Assembly (NCBI GenBank): GCA_013375395.1
Contig: JABXJW010000004.1
Coordinates: 1 to 53,148, forward strand
Length of the DNA stretch: 53,148 nucleotides
Source of the DNA: Desulfobacterales bacterium
GTDB lineage: Bacteria > Desulfobacterota > Desulfobacteria > Desulfobacterales > C00003060
Reading direction: 5' to 3'
The notes under the pieces are model-generated. The model worked only from the letters and a program-made list of their open reading frames with translations, made no database searches and was not told the DNA's origin. A program made the position numbers and the translations under genes. Shown here one piece after another: positions 8,850 through 25,696 of the stretch (within the stretch, counting starts at the first letter, position 1; every line of letters begins with the position of its first letter).

Positions 8850-9893
8850 ATGAGTAAAAGAAAAAGTGTAAGGATTATGAAACGGATAGGATTACTATGT
8901 CTATTTTCTATTGTTTGTTTTGCTTCCATTATTCTATATAAAGAGATAAGTTACATACCCTCTCCGATTTTGATTCCGGACGGAATGGAGATTCAATCTA
9001 ATGTTTTAGGGCATTATTATCGTGACTATAGCCAAAGGTATTCAAATATAAGCAAAAAATACATTTTTGACAGAAATGGCGTGCCAACCTATCATCTCAA
9101 GGGAAATTGTTACTATCATCCGGTGCGTATAAGCCAGTATGCTCTCGGAGCCTTTGAATATTTCCTCGATACCGGAAATAACGATGCCAAGAACGCTTTT
9201 TTAACATGTGCAGAGTGGCTTACGAATAATTTGAGAAAACATGGAAAGTTCTTTTATTGGGAATATCGCTTCGGCCATACAGACGTTCCATGGTTTTCTG
9301 CTATGGCGCAGGGACAAGGGGCTTCCGTTCTTTTGAGGGCTTTTTCTGAAACACACGATAAAAAATACTTGCATTCAGCAAGGAAGGCCATAGAACCAAT
9401 CGCGCATGACATTTCCCAGGGGGGGGTCAGTGTCCTTAAGGAAAACACTTACCTTTTTCCTCAGGAATATTCTACAAATTCTCCATCTGAGGTTCTCAAC
9501 GGAGCTATAAGTGCCTGGTTTGGCGTTTATGACTATTATCGGGCCACTGGAGACTCTGAGGTAGAGCAATTCTGTGAAGGAATTATGAACACTTTCCTAT
9601 GGTGTATAGAGGAATACGATACCAGTTACTGGTCATTGTATTGTCGTTCGCCTAAATACCTAGCCTCTCCTTATTACAACTCTGTGCATGTATGCCAACT
9701 TAAAATCCTTTATTTGATTAGCGGTGAGAAAAAGTTTTTGAAATATTCAAAAAGGTTTGAAACCTATCAAAGTAACTGGATAAATAGAACCAAGTATGTC
9801 CTTGCAAACCACTTAAGGCAAATAAAGGAGCATGAGTTTAGCGATATCTATAAATTACCTTCATTCCTTAAAGAAACATTGTTTAGGAGATAG
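8850..9893 (+). CDS. D-glucuronyl C5-epimerase-like protein, membrane-anchored
   Basis: N-terminal TM; YHPVRISQYALGAFEYFLDTGN..., FFYWEYRFGHTDVPWFSAMAQGQGASVLLRAF, SEVLNGAISAWFGVYDYYRATGD, DTSYWSLYC resemble the Glce C-terminal domain. Confidence 0.72.
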   Translation: MSKRKSVRIMKRIGLLCLFSIVCFASIILYKEISYIPSPILIPDGMEIQSNVLGHYYRDYSQRYSNISKKYIFDRNGVPTYHLKGNCYYHPVRISQYALGAFEYFLDTGNNDAKNAFLTCAEWLTNNLRKHGKFFYWEYRFGHTDVPWFSAMAQGQGASVLLRAFSETHDKKYLHSARKAIEPIAHDISQGGVSVLKENTYLFPQEYSTNSPSEVLNGAISAWFGVYDYYRATGDSEVEQFCEGIMNTFLWCIEEYDTSYWSLYCRSPKYLASPYYNSVHVCQLKILYLISGEKKFLKYSKRFETYQSNWINRTKYVLANHLRQIKEHEFSDIYKLPSFLKETLFRR

Positions 9894-14119: not shown

Positions 14120-15517
14120 ATGCATATGACTTCTTACGGCAGCCAAAAGAAGAAAATCCTTCTATTTGGTGATATCCTGTTGGTGTTTATTGCCTTTTTC
14201 CTGGCTGCGTCTATCAAAGCAATTGCTTTTGAGTCGTTTCACCTCGGGCTTGTTCTGACAAGAGTTGATCGGATGGTCATTATATGTATCTCACTCTATC
14301 CAATTACCTTTTATGTCTTTGACCTGTACAACCAAAACCGGTGGAAACATAACGTCAGGCTTCTCGTTTACATAAGCTCAGCCATTCTGGTTGCCTCTGG
14401 CACTGTTGCCTTCCTTTCTTACATCTTCATTCCCAATATCGTCATAGGTAGGACAATTCTATTCTTTCATATCATCTTTAGCATATTCTTAATATTTGCC
14501 TGGCGTAAAGTATTTGAACAGGTCTTTTTGAAAGGAAATTACAGCAAAGATAAAATTCTGCTTATTGGAAATAGCTCCGTTGTAAAAGATATTGAATCCA
14601 TGGTTCGAAGAAGTGTTGCCACAGGCTCTGATCGTCTCGCTGTAATCAGGGACTATTCTGAAAATCCTGGAACGTTGTCTATGAATGGCTCGATACCTGA
14701 GAAAAACCTCTCCGACCTGGTCATCAATTCCGGTTTTAGCGCGGTGGTCGTGGCAGAGCGCCTCAAGCATTTTCCCATACTCAGAAAACAGCTTTTGGAC
14801 CTAAGATTTTCCGGCGTTGCTATCTACGATGCTCCTTATTTTTATGAGGCAGTGACTGGCAAGGTGGCAGTAAATCATGTCAAGGATTCATGGTTTTTAT
14901 TCCGTAATCAGGGCGAAGCGTTCAATCCTTTTATCTATCGGAAGATAAAGAAGATTGTTGATAAATCTCTAGCTCTAGCCGGGATAATTTTTTCATTTCC
15001 ATTGATGCTGCTGAGTGCCTTGGGCATCAAACTTACGTCGAAGGGACCGGTGTTCTTCAAACAGGAACGCCTGGGGCAAAATGAGCGGCCCTTTACTTTG
15101 TTGAAATTCCGCACAATGGTTGACAATGCGGAAAAGGGCACTGGCCCGACGTGGTCCAGTGAAAACGATCCAAGAATCACAAAAATTGGTAGGATCTTGC
15201 GGAAAACCCATCTTGATGAGCTGCCCCAAGTGTTTAGTGTGCTAAACGGGCATATGAGTTTTGTGGGGCCTCGTCCTATCCGGAGACATTTTGCTGACAT
15301 ACTGGCCAAAGACGTCCCCTACTATCGACTCCGGTTTGTCGTGAAACCCGGACTTACAGGCTGGGCTCAGGTGCGGGGAGATTACGCCGGTTCAGAAGAA
15401 GGCCAGGCCGAGAAGCTTGAGTATGACCTGTATTATATACAGAACCAGTCTATTCTGTTTGACCTTTTCATTGTGCTGAAGACGGTGCAGACGGTGTTGT
15501 TTCGGAGGGGCCAGTAA
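14120..15517 (+). CDS. Exopolysaccharide polyprenyl glycosylphosphotransferase (undecaprenyl-phosphate sugar phosphotransferase)
   Basis: N-terminal TM helices; C-terminal GPVFFKQERLGQNERPFTLLKFRTMVDNAEKGTGPTWSSENDPRITKIGRILRKTHLDELPQVFSVLNGHMSFVGPRPIRRHF...PGLTGWAQVRGDYAGSEEGQAEKLEYDLYYI. Confidence 0.93.
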   Translation: MHMTSYGSQKKKILLFGDILLVFIAFFLAASIKAIAFESFHLGLVLTRVDRMVIICISLYPITFYVFDLYNQNRWKHNVRLLVYISSAILVASGTVAFLSYIFIPNIVIGRTILFFHIIFSIFLIFAWRKVFEQVFLKGNYSKDKILLIGNSSVVKDIESMVRRSVATGSDRLAVIRDYSENPGTLSMNGSIPEKNLSDLVINSGFSAVVVAERLKHFPILRKQLLDLRFSGVAIYDAPYFYEAVTGKVAVNHVKDSWFLFRNQGEAFNPFIYRKIKKIVDKSLALAGIIFSFPLMLLSALGIKLTSKGPVFFKQERLGQNERPFTLLKFRTMVDNAEKGTGPTWSSENDPRITKIGRILRKTHLDELPQVFSVLNGHMSFVGPRPIRRHFADILAKDVPYYRLRFVVKPGLTGWAQVRGDYAGSEEGQAEKLEYDLYYIQNQSILFDLFIVLKTVQTVLFRRGQ

Positions 15518-15847: not shown

Positions 15848-16738
15848 TTGCACAGAAATGCAAACGATAACATGCTCCCCGCAATAAAAGTCGAACAGAA
15901 AATTGAAATAGGCGGCGTCTGTTGTTCAATAGGCTTTCTGGACGGGTTCTTTAAGAAGGAATTTGCTTCGATTTTTTCAGACTACAGGCGGTGGGGGTTT
16001 AGCTCTGAAGGAAACCCTGAAATCGGTATTATGGTTAAAGAGGGCCGCGTTGAAGCCCCCCGCAGATTGAAGGAGTATGTATTCTACCATATAGTAGACT
16101 ATGATTCCGTTTATGCGACCCTCGCCTTTGATACCAGGAGCTTTGAAGGAGAAATCGGTTTTTCCATCAAACGAGGTGACCGATTCACGCCAGTTAGAAT
16201 CGTAGAACTCACTGAAACGTTTATATTCAACGCCTATCTTTTCTACTTCCATCTCAATGATATCGGAACATTCGTTCATTCCTGCGGCATCGTGGACGGA
16301 GAAAACGGTTATCTATTTGCAGGACCGGGTGGAGAGGGCAAGTCCACAATTGCCTCATTGTCTTTGCCGAGAACTATCTTGTGTGATGACGTAATCCTTT
16401 TGCGAAAGAACGATAAGGGCAGGAGACTGGTCTTTGGCACACCTTTCTCCGGGGACCATGGTAGCGTCAATGGCGGAGCGGAATGTAAAGGAATATATTT
16501 TATTCGGAAAAGTTCTATCAATGAATTGGTTGCCACGAGCCTGATCGATGGCACTGTTGAACTGATGAGAGAAGGGGTTATGGGGGGCTTTATGTCGATT
16601 GACGGAATTCAACGCATATATCCCCAATCCAGACTGTTTGACTTCCTGCTTGACCTGCTGTCCGGGGTGCCATGTTTCAGAATGAAATTCAAGAAGGACG
16701 ATTCCTTTTGGAAGGTGATAAATGAACATGAAGACTAA
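15848..16738 (+). CDS. HPr kinase/phosphorylase-like P-loop protein of the PqqD-associated type
   Basis: FVHSCGIVDGENGYLFAGPGGEGKSTIASLSLPRTILCDDVILLRK: P-loop GPGGEGKST and CDD motif as in HprK-like proteins. Confidence 0.8.
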   Translation: MHRNANDNMLPAIKVEQKIEIGGVCCSIGFLDGFFKKEFASIFSDYRRWGFSSEGNPEIGIMVKEGRVEAPRRLKEYVFYHIVDYDSVYATLAFDTRSFEGEIGFSIKRGDRFTPVRIVELTETFIFNAYLFYFHLNDIGTFVHSCGIVDGENGYLFAGPGGEGKSTIASLSLPRTILCDDVILLRKNDKGRRLVFGTPFSGDHGSVNGGAECKGIYFIRKSSINELVATSLIDGTVELMREGVMGGFMSIDGIQRIYPQSRLFDFLLDLLSGVPCFRMKFKKDDSFWKVINEHED

Positions 16739-16991
16739 CCCAAAAAGGAAGAGCGATCTTGTCTGGCGTGAGGTGGGCGGGGAGATAGCCATAATTTCTC
16801 CTGACAACAAACACCTGCATACGCTAAATGACGTTGGGTCAAGAATCTGGCAGTTGCTCGACGGAGAAAATGATCTATCTGCCATAGCGGACATAATCTC
16901 TGCCGAATATGAGGAAGAAGAAGAGGTGGTGGAACTGGATTTGGCAGAATACGTCGAGAACCTCAGACGGCTGAAGCTCCTGGAGGGCTGA
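16722..16991 (+). CDS. PqqD family peptide-recognition (RRE-type) protein
   Basis: 89 aa; SDLVWREVGGEIAIISPDNKHLHTLNDVGSRIWQLLDGENDLSAIADIISAEYEEEEEVVELDLAEYVENLRRLKLLE is a PqqD-like pattern. Overlaps the 3' end of the HprK-like gene. Confidence 0.9.
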   Translation: MNMKTNPKRKSDLVWREVGGEIAIISPDNKHLHTLNDVGSRIWQLLDGENDLSAIADIISAEYEEEEEVVELDLAEYVENLRRLKLLEG

Positions 16992-16992
16992 T

Positions 16993-18054
16993 ATGGAAAG
17001 CTGTGAATATCTGCCCAGGCCACGGGATACCTATGAGGCGTTTATGGTAGAGAAGTATTGGAGGGTGAATCGGCCCAACAGCATCCACTTTGAACTCACG
17101 AATCGATGTAATTTAGAGTGTATCCATTGCCTTTTCACAAAAGAAAGCACAGATGAGCTGTCAACGCACGAGACATATGAAATTCTTCTTCAACTAAAGA
17201 AATTGGGCGTTTTCTATTTATCATTATCTGGAGGTGAAATCTTTATTCGAAAGGATATAGGACAGATTCTCGATTTTCTGCTGGAAAACAGATTCCTTTT
17301 GAACATCTATACTAACGGAACGCTATTGACCAACACGCTCGTAGATAAAATTGCAATCCTGCAACCCTTGAGAGTAGAAATATCTGTTTACGGAGCGACA
17401 GCCGGGATTCATGATCGGATTACCACGGTTGCCGGGTCTTTTGAAAAAACGATCGGCAGCATAAAGGCGCTTAGAGATGCTGGTGTGTCGGTCCTTTTCA
17501 AAGGCTTCCTTTTGAAGGATAACTTTCACCAGCGCTGGCAGATGATTGATTTAGCCAACGAAATACGAGTGTTATATGCCTTTGATTTTAACGTGATTCC
17601 CAGGTTAAATGGTAATATGAGCAATTTATCAGTCGGAATATCGATAGACCAGGTTAAGAGGATTCATGAAGAAGTAGCAAAAGAAGGCCTTATCTTGAGA
17701 AACCACGTTAAGATCAAAGTCAGAGATTCTCAGCTGCCTCAGGGAGGACGGGTGGTTTGCAATGCTGGGCGGATTAATGGCTGTATAGGACCTAACGGAG
17801 ATGTTTTTCCCTGCCCTGTGCTGCGGCTGACCATGGGAAATCTTATAGAGAAAACTTTTGAGGAAATCTGGAAGACCAATGAGATAGACGATATCAGGGA
17901 CATGACGCTGGATGATCTAAAGATATGCTCTGTTTGTCCGGATCTTGAGTATTGCAACCGTTGTCCGGGCGTTGCCTATCTGGAGACAGGAGATTATTTG
18001 GGACCGGCACCTCTTTCCGTATGTAGCAAGACCAAAGCCTTACCAGCCAGCTGA
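16993..18054 (+). CDS. Radical SAM/SPASM domain protein (putative peptide maturase)
   Basis: ELTNRCNLECIHCLF (CxxxCxxC); LSLSGGEIFIRKDI; SPASM-like CNAGRINGCIGPNGDVFPCPVLRLTMGNLIEKTFEEIW...CSVCPDLEYCNRCPG. Start adjoins the pqqD stop. Confidence 0.93.
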   Translation: MESCEYLPRPRDTYEAFMVEKYWRVNRPNSIHFELTNRCNLECIHCLFTKESTDELSTHETYEILLQLKKLGVFYLSLSGGEIFIRKDIGQILDFLLENRFLLNIYTNGTLLTNTLVDKIAILQPLRVEISVYGATAGIHDRITTVAGSFEKTIGSIKALRDAGVSVLFKGFLLKDNFHQRWQMIDLANEIRVLYAFDFNVIPRLNGNMSNLSVGISIDQVKRIHEEVAKEGLILRNHVKIKVRDSQLPQGGRVVCNAGRINGCIGPNGDVFPCPVLRLTMGNLIEKTFEEIWKTNEIDDIRDMTLDDLKICSVCPDLEYCNRCPGVAYLETGDYLGPAPLSVCSKTKALPAS

Positions 18055-18070
18055 AAAGGGGGTGATGCGT

Positions 18071-18253
18071 ATGAATGACAAGAAATATGAGAAACCTGCT
18101 ATTGTTACAGTGGAGGTTCCTGAGAGAACCGCTTATGCCTGTAACTTGGGAAATGAAACCTGCCCTCATGCTTCAGGCGTGGTGAATCACGCCATATGCA
18201 GCGACAATGGTGGTCAAGGTAGTGGTCTCTGGGGCATTGGGGTGTGCGACTGA
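18071..18253 (+). CDS. Candidate RiPP precursor peptide (Cys/Gly-rich, KYEKPAIV leader-like N-terminus)
   Basis: MNDKKYEKPAIVTVEVPERTAYACNLGNETCPHASGVVNHAICSDNGGQGSGLWGIGVCD; GGGGG Shine-Dalgarno-like tract just upstream; begins 17 nt after the radical SAM stop. ATG at 18065 is an alternative start. Confidence 0.7.
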   Translation: MNDKKYEKPAIVTVEVPERTAYACNLGNETCPHASGVVNHAICSDNGGQGSGLWGIGVCD

Positions 18254-18283
18254 CCTCCCCAGGCTAGCTACAGGCAGAGACAC

Positions 18284-18306
18284 AAAGGGGTGTCCGGTCC
18301 CTTTTT
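18284..18306 (+). terminator. Possible weak terminator/attenuator after the precursor peptide gene
   Basis: AAAGGG...CCCTTT stem followed by a short T run (aaaggggtgtccggtccctttttc). Confidence 0.4.
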
Positions 18307-18378
18307 CAGTCTTTTGAAACCAGGCTCAGGAAGTGCCTCTTCAATTTTTCACACTTCGGCGAAAGGAGGTGAAAAGTA

Positions 18379-19032
18379 ATGGGAAGAACAGGAAGGTTAT
18401 TCATCGTTTTGTTATTTTTTACTTTAACGGTAGCCTTGACAAACTCTGCACTGGCTAAGCTGATCCCAGACCCTGTCGGTGATACGTTTGGGGATGGCTT
18501 AATTGATATTATCAATATGGACGTCCAGTTTGACAGTGACAACCTGTACATTAGTGCGAACTTCGCATCTCAGGTGTCCGAACCGGGGACAGGAAATCCT
18601 TACGACCTTTATGGATTCATCGATCTGGATGTCGACCAGGATCCGAGCACCGGTGGTCCGGCCTGGAGTGACCTCCTCTTTGGAGCGTCTACCGATATTG
18701 GGTCGGATTACTTTATTATGTTCGACTTTACGGCGCCTCCCGATGGGTTGGTTCAGTTATATGCTTTTGGCACCCCTACTAGTCCTTTTATTGACGATGT
18801 GCCGATCAGCTTCTATACAAGGTCCTTTTCGGCAACGGTTCCTTTGGGTGTCATCGGCGATGATGGCTGGGTGAACTATGGCGCTGTATTCGGAACTATT
18901 AATGGCCCTAATGATCTTGTCCCGAACGACGGCTATGCTACGAGTCAAGCCGTTCCAGAGCCGGCCACTATGCTGTTGCTCGGCAGTGGCCTGATCGGGC
19001 TTGCCGGCTTGCGGAGGAGCTTTAACAGGTAA
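18379..19032 (+). CDS. PEP-CTERM sorting domain protein (exosortase substrate)
   Basis: N-terminal signal peptide ending ALA; C-terminal VPEPATMLLLGSGLIGLAGLRRSFNR (PEP motif, TM helix, Arg-rich tail). Strong GGAGGTG RBS. Confidence 0.92.
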   Translation: MGRTGRLFIVLLFFTLTVALTNSALAKLIPDPVGDTFGDGLIDIINMDVQFDSDNLYISANFASQVSEPGTGNPYDLYGFIDLDVDQDPSTGGPAWSDLLFGASTDIGSDYFIMFDFTAPPDGLVQLYAFGTPTSPFIDDVPISFYTRSFSATVPLGVIGDDGWVNYGAVFGTINGPNDLVPNDGYATSQAVPEPATMLLLGSGLIGLAGLRRSFNR

Positions 19033-19038
19033 ATATGT

Positions 19039-19662
19039 GTGCGGAAACGGCAACGTTCCGCAAGGAATATGCTAGCGGCATTTCTTACACCTGGGCGTGA
19101 GGAGGAAGTATTGCGGACGGAAAAGGCCAATGTGATCATTGAAATGCAGGAGGAGCTCTTTCGGAAACAGGGCGAGGGTTGGTTCCGGATCGTTTCCGGC
19201 AGTATGCGCCCACTCATAGACGCTCAGGACAGGGTACTTGCCAAACACATGGAGGCAGATGAAGTTGAGCCGGGAGATATTATCCTTTTCAAAAACAGTC
19301 ATGTTTTGGTCACCCATCGCGTCATAAGGATTTTGAGACGAAACGGGAAAACCATGATTCTTCAAAGGGGTGATGCAGGCGGCAGCGCAAGCACAGTGGC
19401 ACCTGAATCTGTCATGGGCAAAGTGGTGGCCGTTGAAAAGGATGGAAGATTGTTAAGGCTTGACTGCGGGTGGGCTAGAGTTGTAAACGCCTTTTTAGGA
19501 TTCCAGAATTGCTGCTCTTATGGACTTCATTTAAGGATTGCCGCCATTAGGGGGCGGCTAGGAGATAAGCCAGGCTTTCAGTATTTAAGAAATCTATATC
19601 GAATCTTGAGGAAACCTTTTGCTTTTCTAAATCGAGCAATAGCAAGGACCCTTCTGACATAA
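19039..19662 (+). CDS. S26-type signal peptidase-like protein (S24/S26 superfamily)
   Basis: WFRIVSGSMRPLIDAQDRVLAKHMEADEVEPGDIILFKNSHVLVTHRVIRILRRNGKTMILQRGDAG: SGSMRP serine box and VTHRV box, resembling the Ser-His (SipW/Sec11-like) branch. Confidence 0.82.
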   Translation: MRKRQRSARNMLAAFLTPGREEEVLRTEKANVIIEMQEELFRKQGEGWFRIVSGSMRPLIDAQDRVLAKHMEADEVEPGDIILFKNSHVLVTHRVIRILRRNGKTMILQRGDAGGSASTVAPESVMGKVVAVEKDGRLLRLDCGWARVVNAFLGFQNCCSYGLHLRIAAIRGRLGDKPGFQYLRNLYRILRKPFAFLNRAIARTLLT

Positions 19663-22852: not shown

Positions 22853-23137
22853 GACCCGTTGCCCGTGCTTCCCCCACCGTCAGCGCCCTGGATAAGTTGC
22901 CCTGTTTCCTTGAGCACGCCTCACAAATCAAAGCGCATCGCCAATCAAAGACTCACGTCAAACTTCTGACGTTTTGTTGCCTCGCCTAAACACGGGTTTC
23001 TTTCAAAACCATAAAAAAGGTTGTTTCAATGTGACCTATGTCATTGTAATATTGTCAATATTGCCCGAGAAAACCATTGGCATGAAACCTGCTTAATCCT
23101 ATTGAGATTTCAAGGAAACAAGAAAGGAGGTCACTGC

Positions 23138-25696
23138 TTGACTGGTATCTATGAGATAAAGGATCATTACTTTGGCATTCTGAAAAGACATGCGACAAAT
23201 TTTCTTGGCCTTGGCATAACAGTCCTCTTTTTGGCACTTTGCTTGTTTCGCTTGGAGATTCTCGACAGGATGGATCTCAAGTTCTACGACGTAATGATGA
23301 ATCTAAGGGCTGATGCTAAAAGTCCAAGCAAAGTCGTCCTGGTGGACATAGACAATGATTCCATAGACAAGCTCGGCAGTTGGCCTTGGCCTCGTTCCCT
23401 TATAGCCAAGGGCATCAGAAAGATAAACTCCGGCCGCCCCAGAGTCATCGGGCTCAATTTGATCTTGAGTGAACCCGAGGATCGCGCAGGTTTGAGGGCT
23501 GTTACGGCCTTGAAGGAGTTTTTCGTCCAAAACCTTCTGGAGCAAACAGGCACTCAAGGGCAGTTGCTCCGCCTGCGCATGCTTAATGCCGAGGCGAGGT
23601 TGGACAGCGACAAAGAACTGGCCGAATCGATCATGGATTCAGGCAAAGTTGTGCTGCCGATTTTGGTCAAGGAGTCGGAGGTGGAGAACGGGGCAACAGA
23701 ATCGGGTGCTGTTCTAATTGATCAGTCGATCAGGAACATCGGACACTTCGAAGGCTCGAAATGCCGCAAAGCCGGCAAGATACTCCTGCCCCTTGGTGCA
23801 TTTTTAGAAGGCTCAAGCGGCATAGGTCACATCAGCCCCGTCTGCGACATGGACGGAAAGGTCAGGCGCGAGCGGCTCTTGTATGAGCACAACGGGCTGT
23901 GCATCCCTTCCTTCACTTTAAGATTGGCGGCCCTCTATCTAAATGTCTCGCCGGAAAATATACTGGCCGATTTGGGCTCGGTCATTTACATGGGCTCCCT
24001 TGAGATTCCCGTTGACTCGGACTCTGAAGTTTTGGTCGGCTTTAAAGGCCCTGCCGGCTCTTTTGAGAGTTACTCCTACTTCGATGTCATAAACAATGAC
24101 GTTTCGTTGAGTGTGTTCAAAGACAAGCTTGTTTTGCTGAGCGCTTCTGCTGCTCGAACTATGGAGCCGCTCAACACGCCCACCGATTCGGCCATGTCCG
24201 TGGGAGAGTTCTCAGCCAACAGCATATGGGCAATACTGAACAGACAATTTGTCAAACAGCCTTATTGGGGCTTCGACGCAGAGCTTGCGATGATACTCGT
24301 TTTGGGGCTGGTGATTACATTTGTTTTGCCAAGATTGAAGATCATACTTGCGGGCATTACCTTTTTGGTCTTCTTTATGTTGCTTATAGAGGGTTCAGTC
24401 TACTTGTTTGTATCAAATGGCCTCTGGGTCCGGGTGACTTACCCCTTCTTTCAGCTAGTCTGTGGCTATGTCGGGCTGATAAGCATCAGGCACTTTGTAC
24501 CCGAGAGCAGTGAAGAGGATCTGCATTATGTGCCCGCCGAGACAGACGTGGCGACCGGACGCTCTTTGCAGGTCAAGGGAATGCCTGGGCTGGCTTTGGA
24601 TAAATTCCGCACGGCGCCTCTGGACGACAATATGAAAGATATCCTTTACAACCTTGCCTTGGATTACGAGAGAAAGAGTCTGTTCGCCAAGGCCGCGGCC
24701 GTCTATGAGCATATAGAGGCGCACGACGGCAAGTTCAAAGACGTTCGCGAAAGAAAAAAGAAGTTGGTGCAGGCCGACGAGACCATGGTGTTAGGCGACG
24801 GTGACGCCCCTCAGGCGAGCGGCAGCGAAACAGTTTTCACTCTGGGCAGGTACAATGTGATCAGGCAACTGAGCAAAGGCGCTATGGGCACGGTTTTTCT
24901 CGGCCAGGACCCTCGCATCAAGCGAACCACCGCGATCAAGGCCTTCCGGTTTACCGATGACTTCGGGCCGGAAGAGGCCGGGAAGATGAAAGAGAACTTC
25001 TTCTTTGAGGCCAAGAGCGCAGGCACACTGTCGCATCCAAACATAGTCACCATCTACGATGCGGGCGAAGAGCAGGATCTGGCCTACATTGCCATGGAGT
25101 ATTTGGAAGGTGAGAGCCTACAAGAATATACGAAAAAGGAAAACCTGTTGCCCATGCGCAAGGTCATAGAGTATGTGGCCGCCGTCGCAGACGCCCTGGA
25201 TTACGCACACGCAAAAGGCATCGTCCACCGGGATGTTAAGCCTGCCAACATAATGCTTGCCAATACCGGCGTTATAAAGATCACCGATTTCGGCATAGCC
25301 AGGATCACAACTGCCTCCCAGACTCGGACGGGTGTGGTGAAGGGCACCCCGCATTATATGTCCCCGGAACAGATTTCAGGCGAAAAGGTGGATGGAAGGT
25401 CGGACATCTTTTCATTAGGTGTAGTGCTATTTGAGCTTTTGGCCGGAGAGCGCCCTTTCTCCGGCGATAACCTGGCCACGCTTATGCATCAAATAGTGAA
25501 CGTGCCCCACACGGACCCGAAAAAAATGAGCCCCAGAATAGTCAAACCCCTTGGGACCATAATAAACAAGGCCCTTGAGAAGGACCGGGAGAAACGCTAC
25601 CAGAAGGCATCCCAATTGGCTGCACATTTGAGAGAACTCAACAAAGCGATAAATGCCGTTATCGCCAAGAGGAGGACGAAAAGAGCGGCGCAGTAG
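23138..25696 (+). CDS. CHASE2 sensor domain Ser/Thr protein kinase, transmembrane
   Basis: CHASE2-like KFYDVMMNLRADAKSPSKVVLVDIDNDSIDKLGSWPWPRSLIA; kinase YNVIRQLSKGAMGTVFLGQD...GIVHRDVKPANIMLANTGVIKITDFGIAR...GTPHYMSPEQ. TTG start at 23138 chosen because AAAGGAGG lies just upstream. Confidence 0.92.
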   Translation: MTGIYEIKDHYFGILKRHATNFLGLGITVLFLALCLFRLEILDRMDLKFYDVMMNLRADAKSPSKVVLVDIDNDSIDKLGSWPWPRSLIAKGIRKINSGRPRVIGLNLILSEPEDRAGLRAVTALKEFFVQNLLEQTGTQGQLLRLRMLNAEARLDSDKELAESIMDSGKVVLPILVKESEVENGATESGAVLIDQSIRNIGHFEGSKCRKAGKILLPLGAFLEGSSGIGHISPVCDMDGKVRRERLLYEHNGLCIPSFTLRLAALYLNVSPENILADLGSVIYMGSLEIPVDSDSEVLVGFKGPAGSFESYSYFDVINNDVSLSVFKDKLVLLSASAARTMEPLNTPTDSAMSVGEFSANSIWAILNRQFVKQPYWGFDAELAMILVLGLVITFVLPRLKIILAGITFLVFFMLLIEGSVYLFVSNGLWVRVTYPFFQLVCGYVGLISIRHFVPESSEEDLHYVPAETDVATGRSLQVKGMPGLALDKFRTAPLDDNMKDILYNLALDYERKSLFAKAAAVYEHIEAHDGKFKDVRERKKKLVQADETMVLGDGDAPQASGSETVFTLGRYNVIRQLSKGAMGTVFLGQDPRIKRTTAIKAFRFTDDFGPEEAGKMKENFFFEAKSAGTLSHPNIVTIYDAGEEQDLAYIAMEYLEGESLQEYTKKENLLPMRKVIEYVAAVADALDYAHAKGIVHRDVKPANIMLANTGVIKITDFGIARITTASQTRTGVVKGTPHYMSPEQISGEKVDGRSDIFSLGVVLFELLAGERPFSGDNLATLMHQIVNVPHTDPKKMSPRIVKPLGTIINKALEKDREKRYQKASQLAAHLRELNKAINAVIAKRRTKRAAQ

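Follow-up and report, generated by a model that had tools for sequence, protein, structure and literature searches.

The window analysed in the current work is a stretch of 53,148 nucleotides from a Desulfobacterales bacterium (contig JABXJW010000004.1), in which six open reading frames of the + strand, located between positions 15848 and 19662, encode an HprK-like kinase, a PqqD-family protein, a radical SAM/SPASM enzyme, a 60-amino acid cysteine-rich peptide, a PEP-CTERM protein and an S26 peptidase. Five of these six genes (all but the one for the PEP-CTERM protein) form a conserved cassette. Based on gene content, conservation, homology and coding constraint on the peptide, this cassette quite probably belongs to a pathway for a ribosomally synthesized and post-translationally modified peptide (RiPP): it would represent a branch without a name that employs a single radical SAM enzyme, has a core in common with the linear polyphosphorylated peptide (LPP) pathways and makes a small modified peptide. 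The genes are the following:

15848..16738, + strand: HprK-like kinase, predicted peptide serine kinase; TTG start, Walker A motif GPGGEGKS, His141 and Asp177 conserved (P0001 numbering)
16722..16991, + strand: PqqD-family protein, predicted discrete RiPP recognition element (RRE); PF05402, E 5e-16
16993..18054, + strand: radical SAM/SPASM maturase; Radical_SAM E 2e-18, SPASM E 3e-10
18071..18253, + strand: precursor peptide MNDKKYEKPAIVTVEVPERTAYACNLGNETCPHASGVVNHAICSDNGGQGSGLWGIGVCD, 60 aa; leader Y6-T20 (YEKPAI...PERT), predicted core from A21
18379..19032, + strand: PEP-CTERM surface protein, model above cut-off; possibly in the same transcription unit
19039..19662, + strand: S26 peptidase of archaeal/SipW/SEC11 type, predicted RRE-assisted leader peptidase; GTG start, ATG at 19069 possible

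An earlier reading, made from the DNA letters only and here referred to as the sequence-only reading, had described six tightly packed genes of one strand, and this was borne out by the open reading frames and the domain calls. The HprK-like and PqqD genes overlap by 17 nt, gaps of 1 nt and 16 nt separate the PqqD stop from the radical SAM start and the radical SAM stop from the peptide ATG (18071), and the PEP-CTERM gene starts 125 nt after the end of the peptide gene and ends 6 nt before the S26 gene. For the HprK-like protein an ATG at 15872 is a more likely start than the TTG at 15848, being a better fit to a homologue, and the precursor gene has a second in-frame ATG at 18065.

Precursor peptide and predicted tailoring proteins

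The precursor contains Cys residues at positions 24, 31, 43 and 59 and a conserved Ser35. The sequence-only reading depended on the peptide being conserved next to homologous radical SAM genes, and it withstood this check, as the corresponding peptide of genome G707 (loci L106/L139) is 50% identical to that of the window (E 4e-19). A pN of 0.38 against a pS of 0.71 between the window and L106 peptides indicates purifying selection at a near-saturating synonymous distance, and because of this constraint and the identity with the G707 peptide the open reading frame is not a chance one. Apart from one gap, the window and L106/L139 peptides agree in the pattern Y.KP.I.TV..PERT.YACN..E.CPH.S.VV..A.C, and both have a Cys late in the sequence. 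A set of 42 peptides repeatedly shows a [YW]..P leader and, where leader and core meet, a Cys. The tails are highly variable among relatives, and 37 of the 42 peptides end in Ser, compared to 6.7% Ser elsewhere in the tail (the loci being related, a binomial p overstates this difference); such a conserved C-terminal Ser fits a peptide kinase. Domain and model searches with the window peptide returned no family match, and no PqqA precursor was recognised.

The PqqD-family protein is the sole PF05402 match in the genome, and the radical SAM enzyme, the only one of the cassette, carries a CX3CX2C motif at C39/C43/C46 and SPASM cysteines at positions 256, 274, 312, 315, 321, 324 and 344. Both proteins scored below the cut-offs of the PQQ pathway models (85 versus 381 bits for PqqE, 36 versus 46 bits for PqqD). 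The presence of a Cys-rich core together with a SPASM maturase, as in sactipeptides or ranthipeptides, is suggestive of thioether cross-links, and by analogy Cys thioether cross-links are the most likely predicted product of the enzyme. A search with the radical SAM protein across the contigs of the genome and viral contigs retrieved either distant radical SAM proteins without partner genes or nothing. A separate 4.5-kb contig of the same genome (C431, locus L140) carries two adjacent further radical SAM genes, with HprK, PqqD and S26 genes absent from that contig. A reading as a defence system was discarded, there being nothing beyond a generic radical SAM/viperin resemblance.

The assignment of the HprK-like protein is secured by its family, because the family profile matches the HPr kinase structures 1ko7 (2.5e-5) and 1jb1 (4e-4), among generic P-loop matches, and because His141, the Walker Lys162 and Asp177 are invariant in the family alignment. 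The orthologue in L106 is 47% identical to the window protein. Lasso peptide kinases possess a His-Lys-Asp-Asp motif (PMC9266682), to which His141, Lys162 and Asp177 correspond, the last Asp possibly being Asp178 or Asp200. By analogy with such enzymes, the peptide itself is the most likely substrate of the HprK-like protein, a point that had been missed by the sequence-only reading.

The S26 peptidase is matched by TIGR02228 (E 9e-13, just below cut-off) and by the SipW model (E 2e-8), it has the conserved residues Ser55/His93/Asp112 (P0005 numbering), and its family profile matches SEC11 (E 8e-12). No hydrophobic stretch of membrane-anchor length was found in the window protein; the lack of a membrane helix, the conserved Ser/His/Asp and the SEC11 match together fit removal of a leader in the cytosol. 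The predicted role matches the place taken in LPP pathways by LppS, a leader peptidase that depends on the RRE (PMC13381572). In two other loci the S26 protein runs into a second domain, which by eye is GNAT acetyltransferase-like (L042:5754-6785) or SAM methyltransferase-like (L047:5494-6687).

Distribution of the cassette and its polysaccharide setting

Genome G707, of another family of the same order, presents the genes HprK-PqqD-radical SAM-peptide-S26 in an order identical to that of the window, and likewise in an exopolysaccharide (EPS) setting. Among 96 close genomes one further cassette was detected (G036, loci L011/L012; HprK-PqqD-radical SAM-peptide-S26, followed by an ABC transporter and an NTP_transf_5 gene), and the remaining 21 genomes of the genus had none; such a sporadic occurrence is common for mobile biosynthetic clusters. 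Across the Desulfobacterota, searches of the phylum and the class with fetched flanks, many of them on short contigs, yielded 58 loci with a radical SAM gene of this family, which had within a few kb a PqqD (50 loci), S26 (41), HprK (40) or NTP_transf_5 gene (13). None of these four partners was found at control loci (other radical SAM loci of the window's genome; L008-L010).

Three arrangements were distinguished: HprK-PqqD-radical SAM-peptide-S26 in the window, L106, L012 and L015; PqqD-radical SAM-peptide-HprK-S26 in the majority of loci; and HprK-radical SAM-PqqD-S26-radical SAM-peptide, with two radical SAM genes, in L118, L121, L122 and partial ones. In G117 and G154 the cassette is split into a locus with radical SAM and peptide genes (L036, L037) and one with HprK-PqqD-radical SAM and no recognised peptide (L043, L046), the pairs being L036/L043 and L037/L046. 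At the L088 locus (G572), radical SAM genes resembling ScmE and ScmF come after a cassette of the second arrangement. In a sub-branch made up of L091, L092, L094, L110, L114 and L115, radical SAM and S26 genes lie beside glycosyltransferase genes, with PqqD and HprK genes not found nearby and no precursor recognised.

The EPS locus which the sequence-only reading had placed next to the cassette is indeed there, its nearest gene lying directly upstream; a second feature was annotated just 3' of the precursor gene:

14120..15517, + strand: EPS_sugtrans exopolysaccharide polyprenyl glycosylphosphotransferase, model above cut-off
18284..18305, + strand: terminator-like hairpin

A similar EPS glycosylphosphotransferase neighbour occurs at L139, together with a downstream EpsE-like polysaccharide export gene. 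Comparison with the EPS proteins of the window and L139 located a polysaccharide gene within the fetched bases at 19 loci including the window, a recurrence which, with no formal background rate set, is suggestive. The hairpin was rejected as a terminator of the peptide gene, being no better than chance in both scan and fold. The EPS locus of the window also includes a D-glucuronyl C5-epimerase-like gene (8850-9893), and an 891-amino acid protein with a PknB-like Ser/Thr kinase domain at its C-terminus is encoded at 23021-25696.

Proposed pathway and competing explanations

The variant RiPP-type system proposed from the sequence is upheld: the cassette has PqqD as recognition element, a single maturase of the radical SAM/SPASM type and, encoded directly after it, a conserved precursor. 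In the pathway envisaged here, the PqqD-like protein would bind the YEKPAI...PERT leader of the 60-amino acid precursor, whose predicted core begins at about A21, and present the peptide to two enzymes, the radical SAM/SPASM maturase and the HprK-like kinase. The maturase would modify the Cys-rich core, and the kinase, judging from LppK and the paeninodin kinase, would phosphorylate a Ser within it, probably Ser35 in the window peptide and, in most relatives, the one at the C-terminus. The soluble S26 peptidase would then, like LppS, remove the leader, most likely after T20. Release and further tailoring (NTP_transf_5, ABC exporter) would proceed via genes outside the window locus. The location of the cassette within an EPS locus, in the window and in the nearest relative alike, points to a probable function of the product in the envelope or for the polysaccharide.

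Several observations weigh against this pathway. The single-sequence match of the HprK-like protein is weak (E 5e-4 to ScmC, 1.5e-3 to HprK_rel_B), and its single-sequence AlphaFold model reached a pLDDT of 35 and was not used. The window peptide is without the C-terminal Ser typical of most relatives, ending in Asp (that of L106 ends in Arg), so that the kinase site is a guess, the single aligned core Ser being Ser35. Of the LPP consensus the leader has a part, Y..P.[IV] and the Thr preceding the core, but no HQ or FET (VFET or VFEQT is present in the leaders of L035, L036 and L039). Finally, NTP_transf_5 and transporter genes are absent at the window locus, one NTP_transf_5 gene being located elsewhere in the genome (C381).

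Among competing explanations, the one that retains most probability, though still unlikely, is a division of labour: the radical SAM, PqqD and S26 proteins would make the peptide, and the HprK-like protein would leave it alone, acting instead as a regulatory kinase for the EPS locus. The position of the HprK gene beside EPS genes, the missing C-terminal Ser in the window subgroup and the other roles that HprK relatives may have would agree with this; yet an HprK gene is near 40 of the 58 loci, most of which show no recognised EPS gene beside them in the fetched sequence, it occurs in either order relative to the precursor, and precursors are the substrates of both LppK and the paeninodin kinase. 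That the peptide is instead a cofactor or redox precursor, PqqA- or mycofactocin-like, rather than a secreted RiPP is very improbable: a short peptide with PqqD and a SPASM maturase, a score of 128 bits of the radical SAM protein with the mycofactocin maturase model and the absence of an exporter at the locus are compatible with such a role, but the tails of the relatives vary strongly, unlike those of cofactor precursors, ABC exporters and NTP_transf_5 occur with some of the relatives, and the genome's only PqqD is below the PQQ PqqD cut-off.

An equally slim probability is assigned to an origin from a SynChlorMet (Scm) cassette by loss of one of its radical SAM genes. The domain sets are alike, ScmC is the closest named family for the HprK-like protein, and true Scm loci (L133-L138) contain PqqD, HprK, two radical SAM, S26 and NTP_transf_5 genes and, in several, Y..P Cys-rich precursors. 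Against this, the window proteins are below all Scm cut-offs (19 versus 125 bits for ScmC, 26 versus 100 for ScmD, 114 versus 400 for ScmE and 86 versus 400 for ScmF), ScmE and ScmF form clades separate from the radical SAM family of the window (SH-aLRT 99), the Scm HprK proteins constitute a clade of their own (100/99), and even the two-radical SAM relative L121 does not reach the Scm cut-offs. Scm membership was rejected on these cut-offs, the radical SAM count and the trees, and the distinction from Scm drawn in the sequence-only reading, which a match to that cassette would have overturned, is confirmed by curated models and trees. The least probable explanation, if by a small margin, is the earlier proposal of an envelope link, by which the S26 peptidase processes the peptide as a secreted signal-peptide protein tied to the surface PEP-CTERM protein. 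The PEP-CTERM and S26 genes are indeed adjacent, and XrtA/PEP-CTERM-type EPS genes are close to the cassette, but no signal sequence is apparent in the peptide on inspection, the S26 protein lacks a membrane anchor and fits the place of LppS, and the S26 gene travels with HprK and PqqD, while no PEP-CTERM gene is present at the corresponding loci L106/L139 (G707) and L012. The PEP-CTERM protein was rejected as part of the system, its gene probably being a neighbour only.

A more far-reaching version of the proposed RiPP pathway is offered as a doubtful conjecture: the product might be both radically cross-linked and (poly)phosphorylated, NTP_transf_5 might use the phosphate to attach a sugar, the peptide might be joined to or act on the exopolysaccharide of the neighbouring locus, and LPP, Scm and the single-radical SAM branch might be one superfamily sharing a Y..P leader, PqqD, a peptide kinase and a SipW-type peptidase.

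Comparison with known systems

Scm cassettes (TIGR04248-TIGR04251) resemble that of the window in their PqqD, HprK-like and radical SAM/SPASM genes and differ in having two radical SAM enzymes of separate clades instead of one; Scm has the appearance of a sister branch built on a shared design, and by analogy its HprK and S26 genes may function much as their LPP counterparts do. A large protein with the look of an ABC exporter is encoded at the Scm loci L135 and L137. No paper on the roles of HprK and S26 in the single-radical SAM family or in Scm cassettes was found in the literature searched, and these genes now gain testable roles in both. The wide distribution of the cassette in Desulfobacterota and its repeated location next to polysaccharide genes also make a role of such peptides in the envelope testable.

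Other PqqD/radical SAM RiPP clusters, of sactipeptide or ranthipeptide type, share PqqD, a SPASM maturase and a Cys-rich peptide; the plasmid-borne relatives inspected consist of PqqD/radical SAM or radical SAM loci and differ in being without HprK or S26. The paeninodin and pseudomycoidin lasso peptides have a Y/W..P leader, a PqqD-like B1 protein, an HprK-like Ser kinase and often an NTP transferase; their kinases phosphorylate the C-terminal Ser, and the NTP transferase adds a hexose (PMC8498205, PMC9266682). The window cassette has a radical SAM enzyme and an S26 peptidase in place of the cyclase and B2 protease, and a scan of the cassette and of neighbouring genes found neither an asparagine-synthetase-like cyclase nor a B2 transglutaminase-like protease.

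Among characterised systems, that of the LPPs of Bacillota (lppAKBSDN of Paenibacillus alginolyticus, reported in May 2026) comes closest; it comprises a discrete RRE, an HprK kinase, a SipW-like leader peptidase, an NTP transferase and an exporter and is found in capsule loci (PMC13381572). LppK adds one to four phosphates to core Ser3, LppS requires the RRE and cuts after Thr-1, and the leader reads YxxPxVLxHQxIxFETxxS (PMC13381572). Compared through this published description, the window cassette has in common a discrete PqqD-fold RRE, an HprK-like kinase gene, an archaeal/SipW-type S26 peptidase, part of the leader consensus (Y..P.[IV], and Thr as the residue preceding the core) and a polysaccharide-locus setting, and some of its relatives, such as L012, also have the NTP transferase and exporter. 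The differences are the incomplete leader motif, the lack of an NTP transferase and exporter at the window locus, the four-Cys core and the single radical SAM/SPASM enzyme, possibly a cyclising one; LPPs are reported as linear, have no cyclising enzyme, and no radical SAM enzyme is mentioned in that report (PMC13381572). No paper on a radical SAM version of LPP was found in the literature searched, with subscription journals mostly outside that search. The gene set of the window is that of the parts reported in 2026 for the phosphorylated peptides of Bacillota plus a radical enzyme absent from that report, and it thereby joins the tailoring set of LPP and paeninodin (a peptide kinase and a SipW-type leader peptidase) with radical SAM peptide maturation, two lines hitherto described apart.

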